A DNA stretch of 20,554 nt, taken from IMG/VR virus record IMGVR_UViG_3300046012_000249, positions 1-20,554 of that record; one strand, written 5' to 3'. The DNA is from a virus. The position numbers and the translations under genes are program-made. Positions 2,936 through 15,286 of the stretch are shown here, piece after piece; positions within the stretch are counted from its first letter, which is position 1; the number at the start of each line of letters is the position of its first letter. The notes beneath the pieces were generated by a model. That model was not told the origin of the DNA, searched no databases, and worked only from the letters and a program-made list of their open reading frames with translations.

Positions 2936-3859
2936 TCAGGGACCGTTGCTGCCCCAGAGCGTGCGCGGGTCGCCCCAGAAGATCGAGTAGCGTTCGCGCG
3001 ATTTGGCCTTCGCGTTGTCCGTGTCGAAATCGTTGTCTTGCGTAAACGAGATCGGGACGCGGCTGAAATAGATCAGGCCATTCGGCGCGTTCGAGCGCAA
3101 GAACCACGCATGCGGCGACGTGAAGTAGTGGTTCAGGTGAATCCCGCCGGGGATGCTGTTCGTGGCCTTGAGCACGTTGATATCGTTGTCAGCGGTGCCA
3201 GACTGGAACACTGACTTCAAAATGCGGTTGGCGTTGAACCATTCCTGGCGCGCGATATGCAGCGAGCGCGGGATGATGTTGATGAGATTGCCCACGTCGT
3301 CCGTCGCACCCATCATCTGGATGATCAGGTCTTCAAGTGAAGCTTCGCTCAGGTCCGCGCCGACCGCAAGCATGTTCGACCACGTGCCGCCGCTCGTGTT
3401 CGGGTGCGCCGTGTTCAGCAACGACACGCCATCGCCGCCGATGAAGTTGGCCGAGAACGCATTGTTGTAAACGTTTGCGACGACGTTCTCTTTCGTCTGG
3501 TTGAACGCGAAAGCCAGTGCGCGAGCACGGGTCTTCGACACAGCCTCGTAGAGGTTGTCTTCGAGTTCGACTTGGGAAACGATGTAGCCCAGGCTGTACT
3601 CGACGTGCGTCCAGATGCTCGAGAAGCCTTGAACCTCGGCTACGTAGTTCGTAGCTCCGGTTTCTTGCTTCACCTGCGCGAGACCGAAGCCGATGATCTG
3701 CGTGTCTTTCTCGTAGTTCATCGACGACGTGTCTTGCTCGCACAGCGCCATCCATTCCGGCGCGTGCTCGTTGTACATCCGCCCCCACCACTTGTGAATA
3801 CCAGGCCACAATGCTAGGGGGTGTGCGCCAGTGGTGATCGGACCGCCAATTGCACCCAT
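2936..3859 (-). CDS. Major capsid protein
   Basis: A 307-aa protein with the look of an HK97-fold major head subunit. A charged helical stretch (YEAVSKTRARALAFAFNQTKE, about 105-125) is followed by the segment LLNTAHPNTSGGTWSN (about 147-162), a pattern widespread in phage capsid proteins, and then by a helix that starts SLEDLI. The C-terminal strands contain GIHLNHYFTSPHAWFLRSN. AAAGGAG lies 7 nt before the ATG at 3857-3859. It sits two genes past the scaffold-like gene, the usual order, and forms the icosahedral shell. Length fits the family. The assignment rests on motif pattern and context. Confidence 0.88.
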   Translation of the reverse strand: MGAIGGPITTGAHPLALWPGIHKWWGRMYNEHAPEWMALCEQDTSSMNYEKDTQIIGFGLAQVKQETGATNYVAEVQGFSSIWTHVEYSLGYIVSQVELEDNLYEAVSKTRARALAFAFNQTKENVVANVYNNAFSANFIGGDGVSLLNTAHPNTSGGTWSNMLAVGADLSEASLEDLIIQMMGATDDVGNLINIIPRSLHIARQEWFNANRILKSVFQSGTADNDINVLKATNSIPGGIHLNHYFTSPHAWFLRSNAPNGLIYFSRVPISFTQDNDFDTDNAKAKSRERYSIFWGDPRTLWGSNGP

Positions 3860-6492: not shown

Positions 6493-8590
6493 GGCTTCTG
6501 TCTGCGTCCGCATTTTCGCTGTCTACCTGTGTTTGCACCATGCCGTGGGCGATCTCGATTGCCTTAAGCACAGAGTCTAGATGCGCGTTCTTCGCGCCGA
6601 TTTGAGCCTCGAGCATTGCAATCGCATGCCCTTGCTCGACACCTTTGGCCTGAGCCATTTGGTTCGCGGCCTGCGAGGCAAGTAGAGCAATTTCGTACTT
6701 GAGCTTCGCGGCTTCCATCTGTAGCTCGGCCTCGGCCAACTTGCCTTTGTTTTGGACGTCTTGCATCTTGGCTTGCGCGACCATGTTCTTGGCCTGGATC
6801 TCGAGCATTTTCGGATTCGGCATTGGCTGCGCGCCAGCCGGTACTTTGCCCGACGGAGGCTTGCCTGCTTGCTGCAGCTGTTGGTCCTCGGCAATGAGTG
6901 CCGGATCGATTACGAACCGATCGGGGTCTTGGACCTTAAGCGCTTCGTAGTAGTAGAGGATGGCTTGGTAGCGATCACCGTAGGGGAGGTTTGTTGCCGT
7001 TTGCAAGATCGCCGTGGATTGCTGGAGCCGCTGCATGTCTGACATGTAGAAAGGCGAAGCCGACGGGCGAATGAGGTTAATGCCGGGCGAGGTATAGTCC
7101 GCGCCAAACACCTCGGCCATGTTGCCCTTCGTGTCGTAGAAGCGCGTTGCGTCTTCAGACTGGAAGTTGATATTGAGGCGGAAGAGTTTTTGAAACTCCC
7201 GCGTCATGCCTTTGTGCGTGCGCTTGTAAATGCCGTTGAAGGTCGTCATGCCTTGTTCGATCATGGATTGCTGAGTCCCGGCGGGTGTGTTCTGGCCAGG
7301 GTTCTCACCCATCATTGCGTCTGTCGCGCCAGAGATCATCTGGCCGTACTGAATCAAAAGGCTGATGAGTTTGAACAATCCCTCGCTCGGTTGCGGAGTC
7401 GGCAGCGCCATTACGTTGTCGCGGATTTCGCCACCGAGGCAGTCAAGCGTGATCCACTTGCCCGGGCTGATATGGAGATCGCCTTTCTTGAGCTTCGCGC
7501 CCTTACCGAGGAAGCCGCCACCGGCATTCGCCATTGTGCCCGCGTCGAGCATCTGGTTGATGCCGCTGTCGATAACGTGGTTGATCGGGCCGAGCAACGC
7601 GCCGAGTCCAAGGTCATAGATGCCACCGTCGGGCGAGGGAATGAACGTGTACTTGGTGTACATTCCGCAGGGCTCGATGCGCAGGATGCGAGGCTTTTTC
7701 TCGCGCGAGTAGGTGATATCCTTACGAGTGAAGAGCGGGGCGAGGCGAAGTAGCTGGCGCGTGTCATGACGGACAGTGGCGACGTATGGCTCGCGGTAGT
7801 CGTCCCCATCGAGGTCGAGGTAGAGACACTGCTCGAGGCATTCGTAAGGGGTGTCGGAGTCGACCGGAGGCGGCGAGGTTCCTTGGCGCTTGTCTACGCC
7901 GTTGCCATCGCGCTCAGTCGGCTGCGTCACGTGCGCGCCAGGATGGAATTCCTCGAACACGCCAAGCATTTGTTTCTCGCGCACATCGTTGTGGCTGAGG
8001 TAGAGCAAGTGCGTAACACGCTGGCACTCTTCGACCGACGTGGCCCAGTAGTTCATGTACAGATCGCGCGGGGAGACACACACCGAGCGGTTAATCGCGC
8101 GGACAGGATCGTGCCAGGTCTTTTTGAACACGCAGCCCATGATGGCCTGAATCAAGAGCGCCTTGTCAGCCTCTTCTTCCCAGTCGAGCATTTGCTCAAG
8201 CACCTGGTAGGACATGTGCGCGGAGATGCGCTTGGCGCGGGCTTCCTCGTCAGGCTTGCCGGGCACGAGCGGCTTGGTGGTGACAGGGTTCGGGCCGCCT
8301 ATGAGCGCGGGGTATGCGCGCGACTGGAACTGGAGTGCGGCGATTGTGACGAGCGGGAACTTGACATTAGCCGCGCCTTCCCAGGGGAATGTCTTCTTCT
8401 CTACCACTTGGAGCGCGAGCTCCATGCCCTTACGCATGCGGTCTTCCCAACCGGCGCGTGATTCTTTGTCTCGCTTAAAGCTCTCGCAAATGTCGAAGCC
8501 GAGTCCGCGCGCCTCATCCTCGCTCAAAGCGGGAACAAGGTTCGGACTCTTTAAAATCTTTTCGAGCGGGACAATGGTTTCGAGATTCAC
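6437..8590 (-). CDS. Portal protein
   Basis: A 717-aa protein fitting a long phage portal, the dodecameric ring through which DNA enters and leaves the head. Visible portal-type segments include FPWEGAANVKFPLVTIAALQFQ early on, the SPRDLYMNYW stretch (about 170-180) and GAKLKKGDLHISPGKWI in the middle. The last 150 residues are Gln/Ala/Lys-rich and coiled-coil (MLEIQAKNMVAQAKMQDVQN), like the extended barrel or helical tail of large portals. The start is GTG at 8588-8590 with GGAG 8 nt upstream. It lies directly after terminase and the small Cys-rich gene. The assignment rests on family resemblance plus position. Confidence 0.85.
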   Translation of the reverse strand: MNLETIVPLEKILKSPNLVPALSEDEARGLGFDICESFKRDKESRAGWEDRMRKGMELALQVVEKKTFPWEGAANVKFPLVTIAALQFQSRAYPALIGGPNPVTTKPLVPGKPDEEARAKRISAHMSYQVLEQMLDWEEEADKALLIQAIMGCVFKKTWHDPVRAINRSVCVSPRDLYMNYWATSVEECQRVTHLLYLSHNDVREKQMLGVFEEFHPGAHVTQPTERDGNGVDKRQGTSPPPVDSDTPYECLEQCLYLDLDGDDYREPYVATVRHDTRQLLRLAPLFTRKDITYSREKKPRILRIEPCGMYTKYTFIPSPDGGIYDLGLGALLGPINHVIDSGINQMLDAGTMANAGGGFLGKGAKLKKGDLHISPGKWITLDCLGGEIRDNVMALPTPQPSEGLFKLISLLIQYGQMISGATDAMMGENPGQNTPAGTQQSMIEQGMTTFNGIYKRTHKGMTREFQKLFRLNINFQSEDATRFYDTKGNMAEVFGADYTSPGINLIRPSASPFYMSDMQRLQQSTAILQTATNLPYGDRYQAILYYYEALKVQDPDRFVIDPALIAEDQQLQQAGKPPSGKVPAGAQPMPNPKMLEIQAKNMVAQAKMQDVQNKGKLAEAELQMEAAKLKYEIALLASQAANQMAQAKGVEQGHAIAMLEAQIGAKNAHLDSVLKAIEIAHGMVQTQVDSENADADRSHERALASMAGSRGNSSSS

Positions 8591-8593
8591 TCG

Positions 8594-8758
8594 TCACACT
8601 CCAAAATCACAGTTGCAGCTCGCCACATCGCGTCCACACAGGCCGCATTGCGACATCGCGCACTCACACACATCGGACGGAATATCGACTCCATCAGGCA
8701 GTGTGCTACGTGTATGCGCCGACCGGAGGTCGGCAAGCTGTTCTTGAACCGTTGCCAT
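8594..8758 (-). CDS. Cys-rich microprotein between terminase and portal
   Basis: A 54-aa protein whose C-terminal third holds seven residues of Cys clusters: CECAMSQCGLCGRDVASCNC. The six cysteines (three C-x-C or C-x-x-C groups) could bind zinc. The ATG at 8756-8758 has GAGG 8 nt upstream; longer in-frame starts fall inside the terminase gene. Four-nt gaps or less link it to the portal gene. Function is unknown. A treble-clef or knuckle-type metal site is possible but is inferred from Cys spacing only. Confidence 0.65.
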   Translation of the reverse strand: MATVQEQLADLRSAHTRSTLPDGVDIPSDVCECAMSQCGLCGRDVASCNCDFGV

Positions 8759-8768
8759 TTGCATTACC

Positions 8769-10304
8769 TCAGTAACCTGTCGTCTCGCTGCGGCCCGAGC
8801 TGCCCGTTCCAATAACCATTTCGTGGTAGTCTTCTTCATCCTGCTCTTCCTCGCTCAGGGCGGGAGCCTGCGCGTCAAGGTCCATACCGATCATGCTGAG
8901 AACGTCGACACGATCGTCGTGCTTCGCGCGGGGAAATGCTTTCATCTCGTGTTCGAGATCGTCGTAGCCGCCAGGCATTTGCTTGTTGTAGCGAACGCCT
9001 CGGGCTGCGTGGACTGCTTGCCAGGAACGAGCGCGCATCTTTTTGTCGCTTTTGGGTCGCACGAGCTTGATATTGAGGAAATGGTTTCGCTCGATCATCA
9101 TCTTGCGCAAGAACGGTCCGACGGACTTGGAAATGTTCTCGTCTTCCACGATCCAGTATTCAGGTTTGTACATCAAATCTAGCTCGAACCAGCGTTCTGC
9201 CGCGTCGAGGGTATCGCGAATTTGCGCGTCCATTTCGAGCACGTTGCGCATGTTCTCGCTTGTGACGCCGACCAGACCGAAAGCGGTATTGTCTGTGTCT
9301 TGCTTGGTGCTCACGGCGAAATCAATCGCGCCGTATTTGTTCATCACGCGCTGGAAGTCCGATTCCTCCATTGCCGCGAAGCCTTCTGAGACAAAGAACT
9401 CATTGCCCTCAGCGATCGGAATGCCGAGGTATTCTTGCGAGTAACCGTTGAGGTTCTTCGACAAGCTGTAGCGTTGTTTAATCCGCTTGAGCTTGATCTC
9501 GGAGAACATCTCGGGCCAGAGGATATCGCGAAAGTCGTCGATGCCTCGGTGAGCCGAGCGGAAGAAACCGTACCACGTTGGTTCGATACCACGCGCCAGA
9601 CATTCCGCGCTGTGCAACTGTGACTGGTGAATGTAGTTGTTCAGCAGCGAGTCTTCATGCAAGATCGTTCCGACCATGCGGATCTGGCCGCCGTCCGCAG
9701 GCGCCGGAAGCACAGCGTTCTCAAACCAGTGTTTGGTCTTCGCGCGCGAGTCCGGGTTCAATACTTCCTCGTCGTCCTCGAGGTCATCGACGCGGATCTT
9801 GCCAGGGCGCTTTTGCCGCCACAACTCACCGCGGACTTTTTGCCCCTTGCCGCGTGCCATGAGGCAGAACTCTCGGCCCTTCACTCGGCCAACAAGCTCT
9901 GTCTCATTGCTCCGCACTACCTCTACTTGGAAAGCTTCCTGCAGCCCGATGTATTGTTCATCGGTGAGAATGTAATCAATGTTCGCCAACAGTTGCGCGG
10001 CCTTCTTCTCATTCACGCCGATAAGAATCTCGAAATCCTCCGCGCCGAACAGGACGTCAGCCAGCGCGCAGGTGATTGTGGAGCTAGTCGTCTTCGCGTG
10101 ACCACGCGGGCATACGGCAACGCCGAGTTCTGCGTCACTACAATCCCACTCCCATAAGTCACGGTGGAAAGCAGGAGCAGGCTTAGGCTTATCGAATCCA
10201 TCGTGGAGGAAGACTTCCGAAAAACCTGCAATCATGTTCGGCGTGAGCTTGATGCGCTCAGCCCCTGCTGTGGGGTGCGGATAGTCGTTTGCTTTACGCG
10301 CCAA
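8769..10304 (-). CDS. terL: Terminase large subunit
   Basis: A 511-aa packaging motor. Numbering starts from TTG at 10302-10304, chosen because GGGGAG lies 7 nt upstream; a TTG five codons earlier is possible. The ATPase domain shows a Walker A variant CPRGHAKTT (65-73, Lys71) and Walker B IRVDDLEDDE (170-179) with adjacent acidic residues. The C-terminal RNase H-like nuclease shows AIDFAV (Asp328), IVEDEN (Glu387) and HDDRVDVLSM (Asp463/Asp467), the expected acidic triad. It drives ATP-dependent DNA packaging and genome cutting at the portal. The C-terminal tail is acidic (SEEEQDEEDYHE). All active-site residues appear intact. Confidence 0.94.
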   Translation of the reverse strand: MARKANDYPHPTAGAERIKLTPNMIAGFSEVFLHDGFDKPKPAPAFHRDLWEWDCSDAELGVAVCPRGHAKTTSSTITCALADVLFGAEDFEILIGVNEKKAAQLLANIDYILTDEQYIGLQEAFQVEVVRSNETELVGRVKGREFCLMARGKGQKVRGELWRQKRPGKIRVDDLEDDEEVLNPDSRAKTKHWFENAVLPAPADGGQIRMVGTILHEDSLLNNYIHQSQLHSAECLARGIEPTWYGFFRSAHRGIDDFRDILWPEMFSEIKLKRIKQRYSLSKNLNGYSQEYLGIPIAEGNEFFVSEGFAAMEESDFQRVMNKYGAIDFAVSTKQDTDNTAFGLVGVTSENMRNVLEMDAQIRDTLDAAERWFELDLMYKPEYWIVEDENISKSVGPFLRKMMIERNHFLNIKLVRPKSDKKMRARSWQAVHAARGVRYNKQMPGGYDDLEHEMKAFPRAKHDDRVDVLSMIGMDLDAQAPALSEEEQDEEDYHEMVIGTGSSGRSETTGY

Positions 10305-11289: not shown

Positions 11290-11583
11290 TCACTCCGCCT
11301 TCGGTTCCGCAGGTGCGTTCGGCGCAACGGGCTCTTGCGTCGTCACGGCCGGCGCGGGAGGGTCCATGTCAACAGTCGGACCCTCGGGTTCGCCAATATT
11401 GTTCGTTGGCGCGAGGTAAGCTTCCACCTTCGCGAGCAACGCGCTGAAGCCATCCGCGCTGCGAATCTTATCAATCCACTCTTCCGTCACCTGCACGCCG
11501 TGCTCGTACTCGAGCTTGACCGCAGCCTCTGCGCTCGACAGCCCAGCCTTCACGTACGCGCCAATCTTTTCGATGATGTTCAT
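11290..11583 (-). CDS. First gene of the head operon, hypothetical
   Basis: A 97-aa protein: a helical N-terminal 65 residues (IIEKIGAYVKAGLSSAEAAV) and a Pro/Ala/Glu-rich disordered tail. AAGGAG lies 7 nt before the ATG at 11581-11583. It is the promoter-proximal gene of the minus-strand structural operon and is followed within 4 nt by the terminase small-subunit gene. No motif for a specific function was recognised. Confidence 0.72.
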   Translation of the reverse strand: MNIIEKIGAYVKAGLSSAEAAVKLEYEHGVQVTEEWIDKIRSADGFSALLAKVEAYLAPTNNIGEPEGPTVDMDPPAPAVTTQEPVAPNAPAEPKAE

Positions 11584-11657
11584 TGCCAGACTCCTTAGCC
11601 AATGCCAGGTTAGACTTTCCCGCGCGTGTGGAAGTTCACAGAGGGGCGGGGGATAAG

Positions 11658-11667
11658 CTAGGGTTTA
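11658..11667 (+). repeat. CTAGGGTTTA repeat copy
   Basis: This ten-mer is identical to 17202-17211. Read on the minus strand, its surroundings (11670 down to 11648) give CTATAAACCCTAGC followed by TTATCCCCC, which aligns with CTATAATCCTAGG followed by GGTTATCCC at 17243-17264 on the plus strand. Both lie 60-90 nt upstream of an operon start in the matching direction. Promoter or operator function is inferred. Confidence 0.5.
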
Positions 11668-11720
11668 TAGCGCGCCCGCTACGCCGTTCCTGCGCGCGGG
11701 GTCATTACCATACGCGCCCG

Positions 11721-11742
11721 GCGTTTAAACGCGTTCTAACGC
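11721..11742. promoter_or_regulatory. Tandem palindromic operator-like sites
   Basis: The perfect 12-bp palindrome GCGTTTAAACGC (11721-11732) shares its last two bases with the near-palindrome GCGTTCTAACGC (11731-11742). Centres are 10 bp apart, one helical turn, as expected for cooperative dimer binding by a repressor or activator. It lies about 140 bp upstream of the head operon. The binding protein is unknown. Confidence 0.5.
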
Positions 11743-11828
11743 ATTCCTGGGGCATTGCCGGTCATTCGCGCCGGGCCGCGCGCCGGACCACAGCCACGGC
11801 CGACAGAAGCGGGGCCAGATCACTAAAC

Positions 11829-11841
11829 ACCCCTAGTATTA
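11829..11841 (-). repeat. TAAWMCTAGGGGT motif, copy 1
   Basis: On the minus strand this reads TAATACTAGGGGT, matching 12 of 13 bases of the plus-strand TAATCCTAGGGGT at 17246-17258 and 11 of 13 of the minus-strand TAAAACTAGGGGT at 17237-17225. It points toward the head operon. A degenerate neighbour, CCCTAG, is at 11855-11860. It is a candidate phage-specific promoter or regulator site. Confidence 0.5.
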
Positions 11842-12103
11842 CGCAAAAATAAATCCCTAGCTTCTCTGGGCAATTCCGGCCAAGCGCCATCTCTGGGCTA
11901 TATCGCGCGCGCGGGTGCGAGCTTTTTGCCCCCCACCGCCTCCAAGGGGCACTGGACTAGGGCCAGGCGCGGGGGCGCAGGCTCGGTGGCAGGGGCGCGT
12001 AGGCTTACAAACCGTCGGGGTTGTAACAATGGCTTGCATGTGTCGCGCTATGCACTAGACTCTAATCACCGGGCCACAATGGCGCGGGCAAACGGAGAAC
12101 GCA

Positions 12104-12295
12104 ATGACCTACACACAATACGACGAGCGCGCAGCCTGCGCATCGTTCAAGCTACGCACGGACTGGGAAGAAGCCTGCGCGGTTGACTTCACCTATGAAT
12201 GTCTTGATGCACCTGACTCACTAAGCGGCGCGACACACGCAGCACCGTGGGATGGCGGCGCAAGTGGCGCGGGTATGGTTTACTTCGAGCGGTGA
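12104..12295 (+). CDS. Small hypothetical protein
   Basis: A 63-aa acidic protein (TYTQYDERAACASFKLRTDW at the start) with a Gly-rich C-terminus. GGAG lies 6 nt before the ATG. It is the first plus-strand gene after the divergent control region and is followed by the inverted-repeat element, so it may be expressed early. No family recognised. Confidence 0.6.
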   Translation: MTYTQYDERAACASFKLRTDWEEACAVDFTYECLDAPDSLSGATHAAPWDGGASGAGMVYFER

Positions 12296-12301
12296 AACTC
12301 C

Positions 12302-12342
12302 CGCAACTATTGGAACATAGTTCACACAGTTCACATAGTTGC
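12302..12342. repeat. 9-bp inverted repeat around the left iterons
   Basis: CGCAACTAT (12302-12310) and ATAGTTGCG (12334-12342) are perfect reverse complements flanking a 23-nt spacer that contains the left arm of the larger inverted repeat. Within it AGTTCA recurs at 9-bp spacing. It looks like a cluster of protein-binding half-sites. Confidence 0.55.
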
Positions 12343-12538
12343 GTAGTTGGCGATAGGTTGGAATGGGGGGAGGATGGCTGGCGTGGTGGTGGTGTGTGTA
12401 GGGGTGTGTATATGTATGAAGTAAAAAAAAAATATAGAAACATATACACTACTACAACTCTCTCCACTCCACCCACTCCTTCCACCGACCACACGCGACG
12501 GACGCGGGACCGGGCCAGCTATGTGAACTGTGTGAACT
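12319..12538. repeat. 220-bp element with perfect 20-bp inverted repeats
   Basis: AGTTCACACAGTTCACATAG (12319-12338) is the exact reverse complement of 12519-12538, and similarity continues outward with few mismatches to about 12313 and 12544. Each arm is itself two 9-bp units of AGTTCACA type. The interior is G-rich on its left (12357-12405) and C-rich, almost G-free, on its right (12449-12486). The apex has GTGTATATG (12406-12414) pairing with CATATACAC (12441-12449) around a run of ten A (12423-12432). The whole can fold into one long imperfect hairpin. Candidate roles are a replication origin, a MITE-like element or a regulatory cruciform. There is no gene in 12296-12666. Confidence 0.75.
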
Positions 12539-12598
12539 GTGTTGCGCGGGTGGCGGTGTTTCGATTGGTTCGTGATTGGTATTAGGGTTTGTACCTAT

Positions 12599-12627
12599 GT
12601 TTGTTTCGGTGTTTCGGATTGTATAAT
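12599..12627 (+). promoter_or_regulatory. Probable sigma70-type promoter
   Basis: A perfect -10 box TATAAT occurs at 12622-12627, 39 nt before the ATG of the next gene. The -35 is weak: GTTTGT at 12599-12604 gives a 17-nt spacer, or TTGTTT at 12601-12606 a 15-nt spacer. A TTAGGGTTTG copy of the CTAGGG-type motif sits just upstream (12582-12591). Confidence 0.5.
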
Positions 12628-12666
12628 GTTCATGTGCGCGTGTTGTGCGCGCGACTGGAGTCTATC

Positions 12667-12855
12667 ATGACTGCATGGCTCGTTTGTTTGGCGATTGGAG
12701 TGCACGCGCAACGTGTGGCTGTGCGCGCCGACTCGGCGGAAAGCGCGTTCGAGGTTGCGCGCGGGTATTGGCACACGCATGCAGGTGTGGTAGGAGAGCC
12801 TGTGTTTGCGCGGGTGTTAGCAGAGGATAGTGTAATGGCGCGCACAGCAGTCTAG
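12667..12855 (+). CDS. Small hypothetical protein, hydrophobic N-terminus
   Basis: A 62-aa protein. The start is set by GGAG with a 6-nt spacer; the longer frame back to 12589 includes the promoter. The N-terminus (TAWLVCLAIGVHA) is hydrophobic and ends in a VHA that could be a signal-peptidase site, but it lacks positive charge, so export is doubtful. The 17-nt leader GGAGTCTATCATGACTG (12657-12673) is identical to that of the gene at 18017. Function unknown. Confidence 0.6.
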   Translation: MTAWLVCLAIGVHAQRVAVRADSAESAFEVARGYWHTHAGVVGEPVFARVLAEDSVMARTAV

Positions 12856-12863
12856 TCCGCTTA

Positions 12864-12883
12864 CGAATAGCTCGCGCTATTCG
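12864..12883 (+). other. Intergenic 8-bp hairpin
   Basis: CGAATAGC and GCTATTCG form a perfect stem with a TCGC loop, flanked on both sides by the direct repeat CTAGTC (12852-12857 and 12884-12889). There is no T-run, so it is not a terminator. It lies 20 nt before the next start codon and might be an mRNA-processing or regulatory structure. Confidence 0.5.
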
Positions 12884-12903
12884 CTAGTCGATTGGAGGCA
12901 GAT

Positions 12904-13287
12904 ATGGTCAAGAAAGTAGAGGATTTTCCGCAAGCATTCTTGCGCGCGCTCGAGACTGTGCATGCGCGCGGGGAATTGGTGGTTGCGTTCGCGACTGAGG
13001 AAGAGTGCTATGCCGAACGCTTGCGGTTCTATAAGTTTCTAGCCGCAGTGCGCGCCGATCGTGGCCATGCGCTGTATGACACAGCCTGCGCGTGTGTGTT
13101 GCAATGGCGCGCGATATCCGGCTCGAAAGTTAAGCGTGTGCTGAAGATTGTACGCGCCGATACCCGCGCGGCAGCATGGGGCGAGGCAATAGCACCGGAC
13201 GCGAATGCGGACGTAGTGAAACAGCTGGAAATCGACGAAGCGATGGCGCGCGTAAAAGCGGAGATGAAAGAAAAATTCGGCGCGTGA
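12904..13287 (+). CDS. Hypothetical helical protein
   Basis: A 127-aa, predominantly helical, charged protein ending in a Lys/Glu-rich helix (ARVKAEMKEKFGA). GGAGG with a 6-nt spacer sets the start at the second ATG of the frame. It has several Cys residues (TACACVLQW) without a metal-site spacing. No family recognised. It is separated by a 127-bp gap from the 191-aa gene downstream. Confidence 0.68.
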   Translation: MVKKVEDFPQAFLRALETVHARGELVVAFATEEECYAERLRFYKFLAAVRADRGHALYDTACACVLQWRAISGSKVKRVLKIVRADTRAAAWGEAIAPDANADVVKQLEIDEAMARVKAEMKEKFGA

Positions 13288-14706: not shown

Positions 14707-15063
14707 ATGGCACACAAGCATAAGCAATCACGCAACACTCGCGCACATGCGGAAGCGCTCGCGCGCCGAAACGTGCCTGTCGATGAACTCGGGCGAGTGC
14801 GGTCGAGCATTTTCGGCATGGATCGGGCACTGACGCGCGCAGTGCGTGAGCTACGCGCCAAGCTCTCGGGCCACACGAGCGCACGGTCGCGCTACATGCC
14901 GCACTTTGGCGCGAAGCAGGAACGCAAGCTCATAGCCGCGCGAGTCGCAGCGGTCGCGAAGCAGGCGCGCTTGTGGGAGCGTTCGCCAAGCGTAGGCTGG
15001 GCAGTGTGGCAGCCTAACGATCCGAGCGATCGAAGCGCGCCGTTTGGCTGGCGCAGCGTCTAA
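14707..15063 (+). CDS. Basic hypothetical protein
   Basis: A 118-aa, strongly basic and Ala-rich protein (AHKHKQSRNTRAHAEALARR; KQERKLIAARVAAVAKQARL) that could bind nucleic acid, though no defined fold was recognised. AGGAG with an 8-nt spacer sets the start 11 nt after the preceding stop. The open frame upstream (14668) overlaps the previous gene. It is the last gene before the double-terminator island. Confidence 0.68.
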   Translation: MAHKHKQSRNTRAHAEALARRNVPVDELGRVRSSIFGMDRALTRAVRELRAKLSGHTSARSRYMPHFGAKQERKLIAARVAAVAKQARLWERSPSVGWAVWQPNDPSDRSAPFGWRSV

Positions 15064-15116
15064 CGAGAAACCCCGCTCGCGCGAGTTTATCGTGTCCGCT
15101 TGCGCGAGAGTTCCAA

Positions 15117-15148
15117 GCCCTTGGTGGCAAACGCCAAGGGTGCTTTTT
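15117..15148 (+). terminator. Intrinsic terminator T1
   Basis: CCCTTGG (15118-15124) pairs with CCAAGGG (15134-15140), extended to about 9 bp with a GCAAA loop, followed by TGC and TTTTT (15144-15148). It ends the 14083-15063 gene group. Confidence 0.85.
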
Positions 15149-15149
15149 C

Positions 15150-15225
15150 AAGCCTGCTCCGGCCTCGTGCATGCGAGGTAGCACTCTCCGACACGCGAAA
15201 GCGTGGCTTTAAACCGAGCAGGCTT
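15150..15225 (+). ncRNA. Candidate three-way-junction RNA between two terminators
   Basis: AAGCCTGCTC (15150-15159) pairs perfectly with GAGCAGGCTT (15216-15225). Inside lie two hairpins: CCTCG with CGAGG (15063+100 to 15178, that is 15163-15167 with 15174-15178), and CACGC with GCGTG (15192-15196 with 15201-15205) capped by a GAAA tetraloop. The 76-nt fold is not a tRNA (no 7-nt T loop, no CCA, no anticodon arm). It lies directly after T1 and before T2. It may be a stable small RNA from read-through, or the sensor part of a termination-controlled leader for the tailspike genes. Confidence 0.5.
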
Positions 15226-15246
15226 TAACAAGCATCAACGAGCAGC

Positions 15247-15267
15247 GCCCCTTTCGAGGGGCTTTTT
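15247..15267 (+). terminator. Intrinsic terminator T2 upstream of the tailspike group
   Basis: GCCCCT and AGGGGC form a 6-bp stem with a stabilising TTCG loop, followed by TTTTT (15263-15267). It ends only 20 nt before the next start codon, leaving no room for a promoter between. Expression of the following genes must therefore come from read-through or antitermination. Confidence 0.85.
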
Positions 15268-15286
15268 CGCGTTTATGGAGCCCAAG

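Follow-up and report, generated by a model that had tools for sequence, protein, structure and literature searches.

What does a long palindrome do at the point where the structural and early genes of an uncultivated phage diverge, and which protein, if any, reads it? The window, by which we mean the whole stretch of DNA analysed here and an entire virus record of 20,554 bp, carries one such element. Its left arm (AGTTCACACAGTTCACATAG, + strand, 12319-12338) consists of two 9-bp units (AGTTCACAC and AGTTCACAT) and returns as its exact complement at 12519-12538 (right arm, the same units inverted, - strand), giving perfect 20-bp inverted repeats with 180 bp between them and an outer span of 220 bp, as an earlier note on this DNA had described. 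In 300 dinucleotide shuffles of the 300-bp stretch around the element, no perfect inverted repeat exceeded 11 bp. Imperfect pairing reaches past the arms, to about 12290-12565, and this whole self-complementary stretch folds on itself far more stably than its dinucleotide shuffles, both as DNA (z -7.95) and as RNA (z -7.41). The arms are found only once within the window when up to 3 mismatches are allowed. Plain folding energy is unspecific as a detector of the element; among 280-bp DNA folds in the window, the most stable are found elsewhere, near 14760-15280, and may reflect composition only.

The interior between the arms is strand-biased. A G/T-rich half (12339-12422, + strand) is followed by an A10 tract at the apex (12423-12432) and by an A/C/T-rich half (12433-12518, + strand), an arrangement that the earlier note had also recognised and that gives the highest-scoring G-to-C strand flip in a skew scan of the window (score 57; runner-up 27). 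The second half, described there as almost G-free, is nearly devoid of G up to about 12490 but GC-rich thereafter (GCGACGGACGCGGGACCGGGCC). The inverted repeat reported at the tip is present, with a length of 10 bp rather than 9 (GTGTATATGT at 12406-12415, + strand, pairing in the predicted fold with ACATATACAC at 12440-12449). The apex core (12414-12455) is composed of GTATGAAG (12414-12421), the A10 tract and ACTACTAC (12448-12455). The element proper contains no gene, as had been stated, but a possible ORF of 63 codons, preceded by GGAG, occupies the + strand at 12104-12295 and ends at the left foot of the element; no homologue of it was found.

Terminase and capsid searches retrieved five relatives that cover the site, with TerL identities of 62-76%: L006 (=G001), L007 (=G002), L105 (=G004), L025 (=G005), and L026 (=G006). 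In the window, the terminase, portal, and capsid genes (TerL and portal identified by profile search) lie on the - strand below 11583 and the early genes on the + strand above. Whole relatives have the element where the two gene arms diverge, and these arms rejoin about 30 kb away. Their early arm encodes a DUF3987 protein, a ParB_N-methyltransferase, and a family A DNA polymerase that is divided between two neighbouring ORFs, of which the first bears a uracil-DNA-glycosylase domain; this split recurs in three genomes (G001 41-2345; G002 31746-34407; G004 6759-9204). The early arm of G001 additionally holds an RtcB-type RNA ligase-like protein (39680-40867), named by eye and unseen in the gene list of G002. 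The capsid protein (window 2936-3859) is 92-94% identical where the terminases are only 67-76% identical.

The search in related phages that the earlier note had advised located the element in all five relatives covering the site, each time where the structural and early gene arms diverge. Perfect arms measure 20 bp in the window and 16, 18, 25, 17, and 18 bp in G001, G002, G004, G005, and G006, respectively, with outer spans of 220, 201, 193, 255, 229, and 212 bp in the same order, and units of 8-10 bp, as judged by eye, make up the arms of all six phages. The relatives have in common an interior that runs from G-rich through an AT-rich T-run to C-rich, and the apex is partly conserved, with GTAGTAGT, the T-run, CTTCATAC, and ACTACTAC recurring in several members. 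The arms themselves undergo paired turnover: their letters are replaced while the match within each phage persists, as is evident from alignment scores of 17.5-25 for arms of one phage versus at most 10.5 for arms of different phages. The earlier note had counted unconserved arms in relatives against a functional element; the letters are indeed unconserved, yet complementarity is conserved. Pairing extends into the interior, with z-scores against half-wise shuffles of -1.6 (window), -2.4 (G001), -3.3 (G002), -4.0 (G004), -5.2 (G005), and -4.3 (G006). Each set of arms is confined to a single locus in its own genome (up to 3 mismatches), except for the overlapping contig end of G002. That genome closes into a circle; its ends share about 141 nt inside the element, apart from a difference of one T in the T-run. 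Because the arms are phage-specific, their exact sequence had no match in viral contigs. Megablast and blastn against isolated phages likewise gave no match, and a capsid search of cellular genomes returned no relative. A unit core ACRYRG was spotted post hoc in five of the six phages, and no claim made here rests on it. Outside the right arm, TAGGGTTTGTACCTA at 12583-12597 of the window is a possible operator; a similar AGGTACAAACCCTA is found on the other strand at the corresponding element side in L025, and a weaker version in L026.

Two relatives that are close to each other, G004 and G005, indicate which protein might read the arms. Their 66 orthologues have a median identity of 85%, with higher values for TerL (96%), the two parts of the DNA polymerase (94 and 92%), the DUF3987 protein (95%), an AAA protein (98%), the TerS-like protein (97%), and the capsid (98%). 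The flanking DNA aligns on either side of the element but the arms do not. None of these conserved proteins is thus likely to recognise both sets of arms by sequence. A small early gene that lies next to the element in each of the six phages, which we call p49 (127 aa, window 12904-13287, + strand), is hypervariable: its products in G004 and G005 are only 33% identical, the second lowest value of all orthologues after one large structural-arm protein, and about as different as those of any two members. Since the arms differ and p49 diverges with them while the other proteins are conserved, p49 is the best candidate reader and a putative binder of the arms. In this pair, divergence also affects two further small genes close to the element (48-50% identical), and over the six phages p49 similarity and arm similarity were not significantly correlated (Mantel p 0.17). 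In an AlphaFold model of p49, the confidently predicted core has the order H-E-H-H-E-E, which is compatible with a winged helix. Comparison of p49 with PDB folds and viral folds returned no significant structural match, and PHROGs, Pfam, and PDB sequences gave sub-threshold matches only (e.g., FtsK_gamma, E 0.038). More distant phages have weaker homologues of p49 in their early region; the p49 search added no members to the known five, and none among isolated phages.

It is tempting to see in this two-fold symmetric site a phage replication origin, as its most likely role, with iterons that are read by the adjacent, changeable small protein. We hold this reading tentatively, at slightly less than an even chance, and favour it because of the two-fold symmetric iterons, the AT-rich apex, the position at the divergence point, and the presence in all members. 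Iterated 8-10-bp units stand beside an A/T-run apex in all six phages, and the polymerase and DUF3987 protein encoded in the early arm next to the divergence point also count in its favour. Briefly, a phage protein, possibly p49, would bind the iterons in both inverted arms and bend or loop the element, the AT-rich T-run apex would melt, the self-complementary strands might extrude as hairpins, and the replisome (the split family A polymerase and the DUF3987 protein) would be loaded at the element, in an order of events that we infer. Arms and an equally changeable p49 would thereby give each phage its own recognition code. Among the three suggestions of the earlier note, an iteron origin is thus the best supported, given the divergence point, the inverted iterons, the AT-rich apex, and its recurrence in five of five relatives, though it is not demonstrated. 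The GC-skew analysis proposed there agrees with an origin in part: in G004 and G005 the minimum falls about 270 bp from the element, but in G002 and G001 the distance is 6.6 kb and 13.3 kb, respectively. The AT-skew minimum falls within 0.1-2.2 kb of the element in all four genomes, which may only mirror gene direction. A Rep_3 initiator was not found (controls positive); a RepA_N search gave no match, but its controls were silent as well.

Should the element be an origin, close relatives would each recognise their own DNA in a different way, with their other replication proteins kept. Such a system would parallel plasmid incompatibility in phages and offer a natural setting in which to study joint change of a DNA-binding protein and its sites. 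One might go further and regard the arms and p49 as a replication-specificity module that diversifies jointly and fast, leaving near-identical phages with different origin codes and no cross-firing in co-infection; we consider this extension possible but doubtful.

Other explanations account for parts of the same evidence. The inverted iterons could be the operator sites at which an early regulator, perhaps p49 itself, switches between early and structural transcripts. The location of the element between divergent gene arms and the position of p49 among the first early genes beside it are what such a control region would predict; however, bidirectional transcription control does not by itself require an element of 200-250 bp that pairs along its interior, and a consensus promoter scan gave no site in 11500-13000, including at the TATAAT (12622-12627, + strand) seen by eye outside the right arm as a possible -10 of an early transcript. 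We regard this explanation as unlikely, and consider it somewhat less likely still that transcription through the element yields a long RNA hairpin, which would act either within the early leader or as an RNA of its own. The regulatory hairpin of the earlier note survives in this form as a live rival: the RNA fold is as strong as stated above, pairing is kept while the letters change, as covariation would give (which fits DNA equally), and one strand is richer in G-U pairs in most members. As RNA, however, the element has no consistent strand preference, since most of the apparent preference comes from composition, and against half-wise shuffles its sign differs among members; nor was there an Rfam match, and a tRNA scan found nothing. 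It is also conceivable, though improbable, that the arms have no specific function and mark a mutation-prone spot where template switching creates palindromes and keeps them matched, and slippage expands them into 8-10-bp repeats. The number of units is unequal between left and right arm in G002 and G005, and the neighbouring small genes are divergent too, both in line with such a process, but the element keeps one place and a similar span in six of six phages, beside a partly conserved apex.

Sites for packaging or recombination are far less probable. Proximity to the terminase genes would suit a pac or cos site read by the small terminase subunit, yet the TerS-like protein of G004 and G005 is nearly identical despite wholly different arms, and contig ends, with the exception of the G002 overlap, do not cluster at the element. 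We therefore reject a TerS-read packaging site, as site and TerS do not change together in this pair, and rate packaging in general as very improbable. Iterated arms around a T-rich core resemble a phage attP, and terminal inverted repeats look MITE-like, but an attP-like recombination site or a mobile insertion is the least probable reading of all. Neither tyrosine integrase (PF00589) nor serine resolvase (PF00239) was detected in four genomes of about 50 kb (controls positive), and we reject attP on this ground. The MITE-like element suggested by the earlier note is contradicted by a single copy per genome, at the same place and with a different sequence in every relative; with no copies elsewhere and the site occupied in all relatives covering it, a mobile insertion is rejected as well.

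Returning to the origin reading, the layout has counterparts in systems whose likeness is one of possible working and not of membership. The nearest worked example is oriS of herpes simplex virus, in which inverted protein boxes surround an AT-rich spacer and a hairpin arises once the origin is unwound, and which is bound by UL9 (PMC12543377). Inverted boxes and an AT-rich spacer are common to oriS and the element, but oriS is far shorter, its boxes are fixed in sequence, and it is bound by a large helicase, compared with about 125 aa for the candidate here; the virus being unrelated, the analogy is one of layout only. RepA_N iterons, such as those at the origin of the PLE satellite, have inverted repeats of 8-13 bp converging on a poly-A tract (PMC7145576). 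The element may be compared with them in that its short inverted repeats converge on a poly-A tract, but the PLE repeats lie within one iteron, in contrast to the present arms, which a strand-biased interior of about 150-205 bp separates. Long palindromes of insect mitochondrial control regions have been studied with the replication origin in mind; they are AT-rich organelle DNA and appear to be without iterated arms of the phage-specific kind (PMC1762429).

More distant phages suggest where the element may have come from. In Alcaligenes phage vB_Af_QDWS535 and in MW202796, the divergent intergenic region upstream of the terminase genes likewise has a G-run followed by a T-rich core, but it lacks long perfect arms, and close by lies a (TA)n tract, distinct from the core and about 100-120 bp long. 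At TerL identities of 33-41%, many phages show a strong G-to-C flip that is located 1.0-1.6 kb upstream of TerL and often includes a G-run, a GCACC core, and a T-run, with no hairpin folding (z near 0). The strand-flip core occupies the corresponding divergent region in distant phages, adjoined by a (TA)n tract in two records, which also counts in favour of the origin reading. The palindromic arms may thus be an addition in the clade of the window to an older strand-biased core. The element can serve as a recognisable marker of a large phage group, most of it uncultivated. Across this group, the flips in L028-L103 (e.g., L054:8740, L057:5686, L082:8391 and 8680) are conserved and often come in twos, about 160-300 bp apart.
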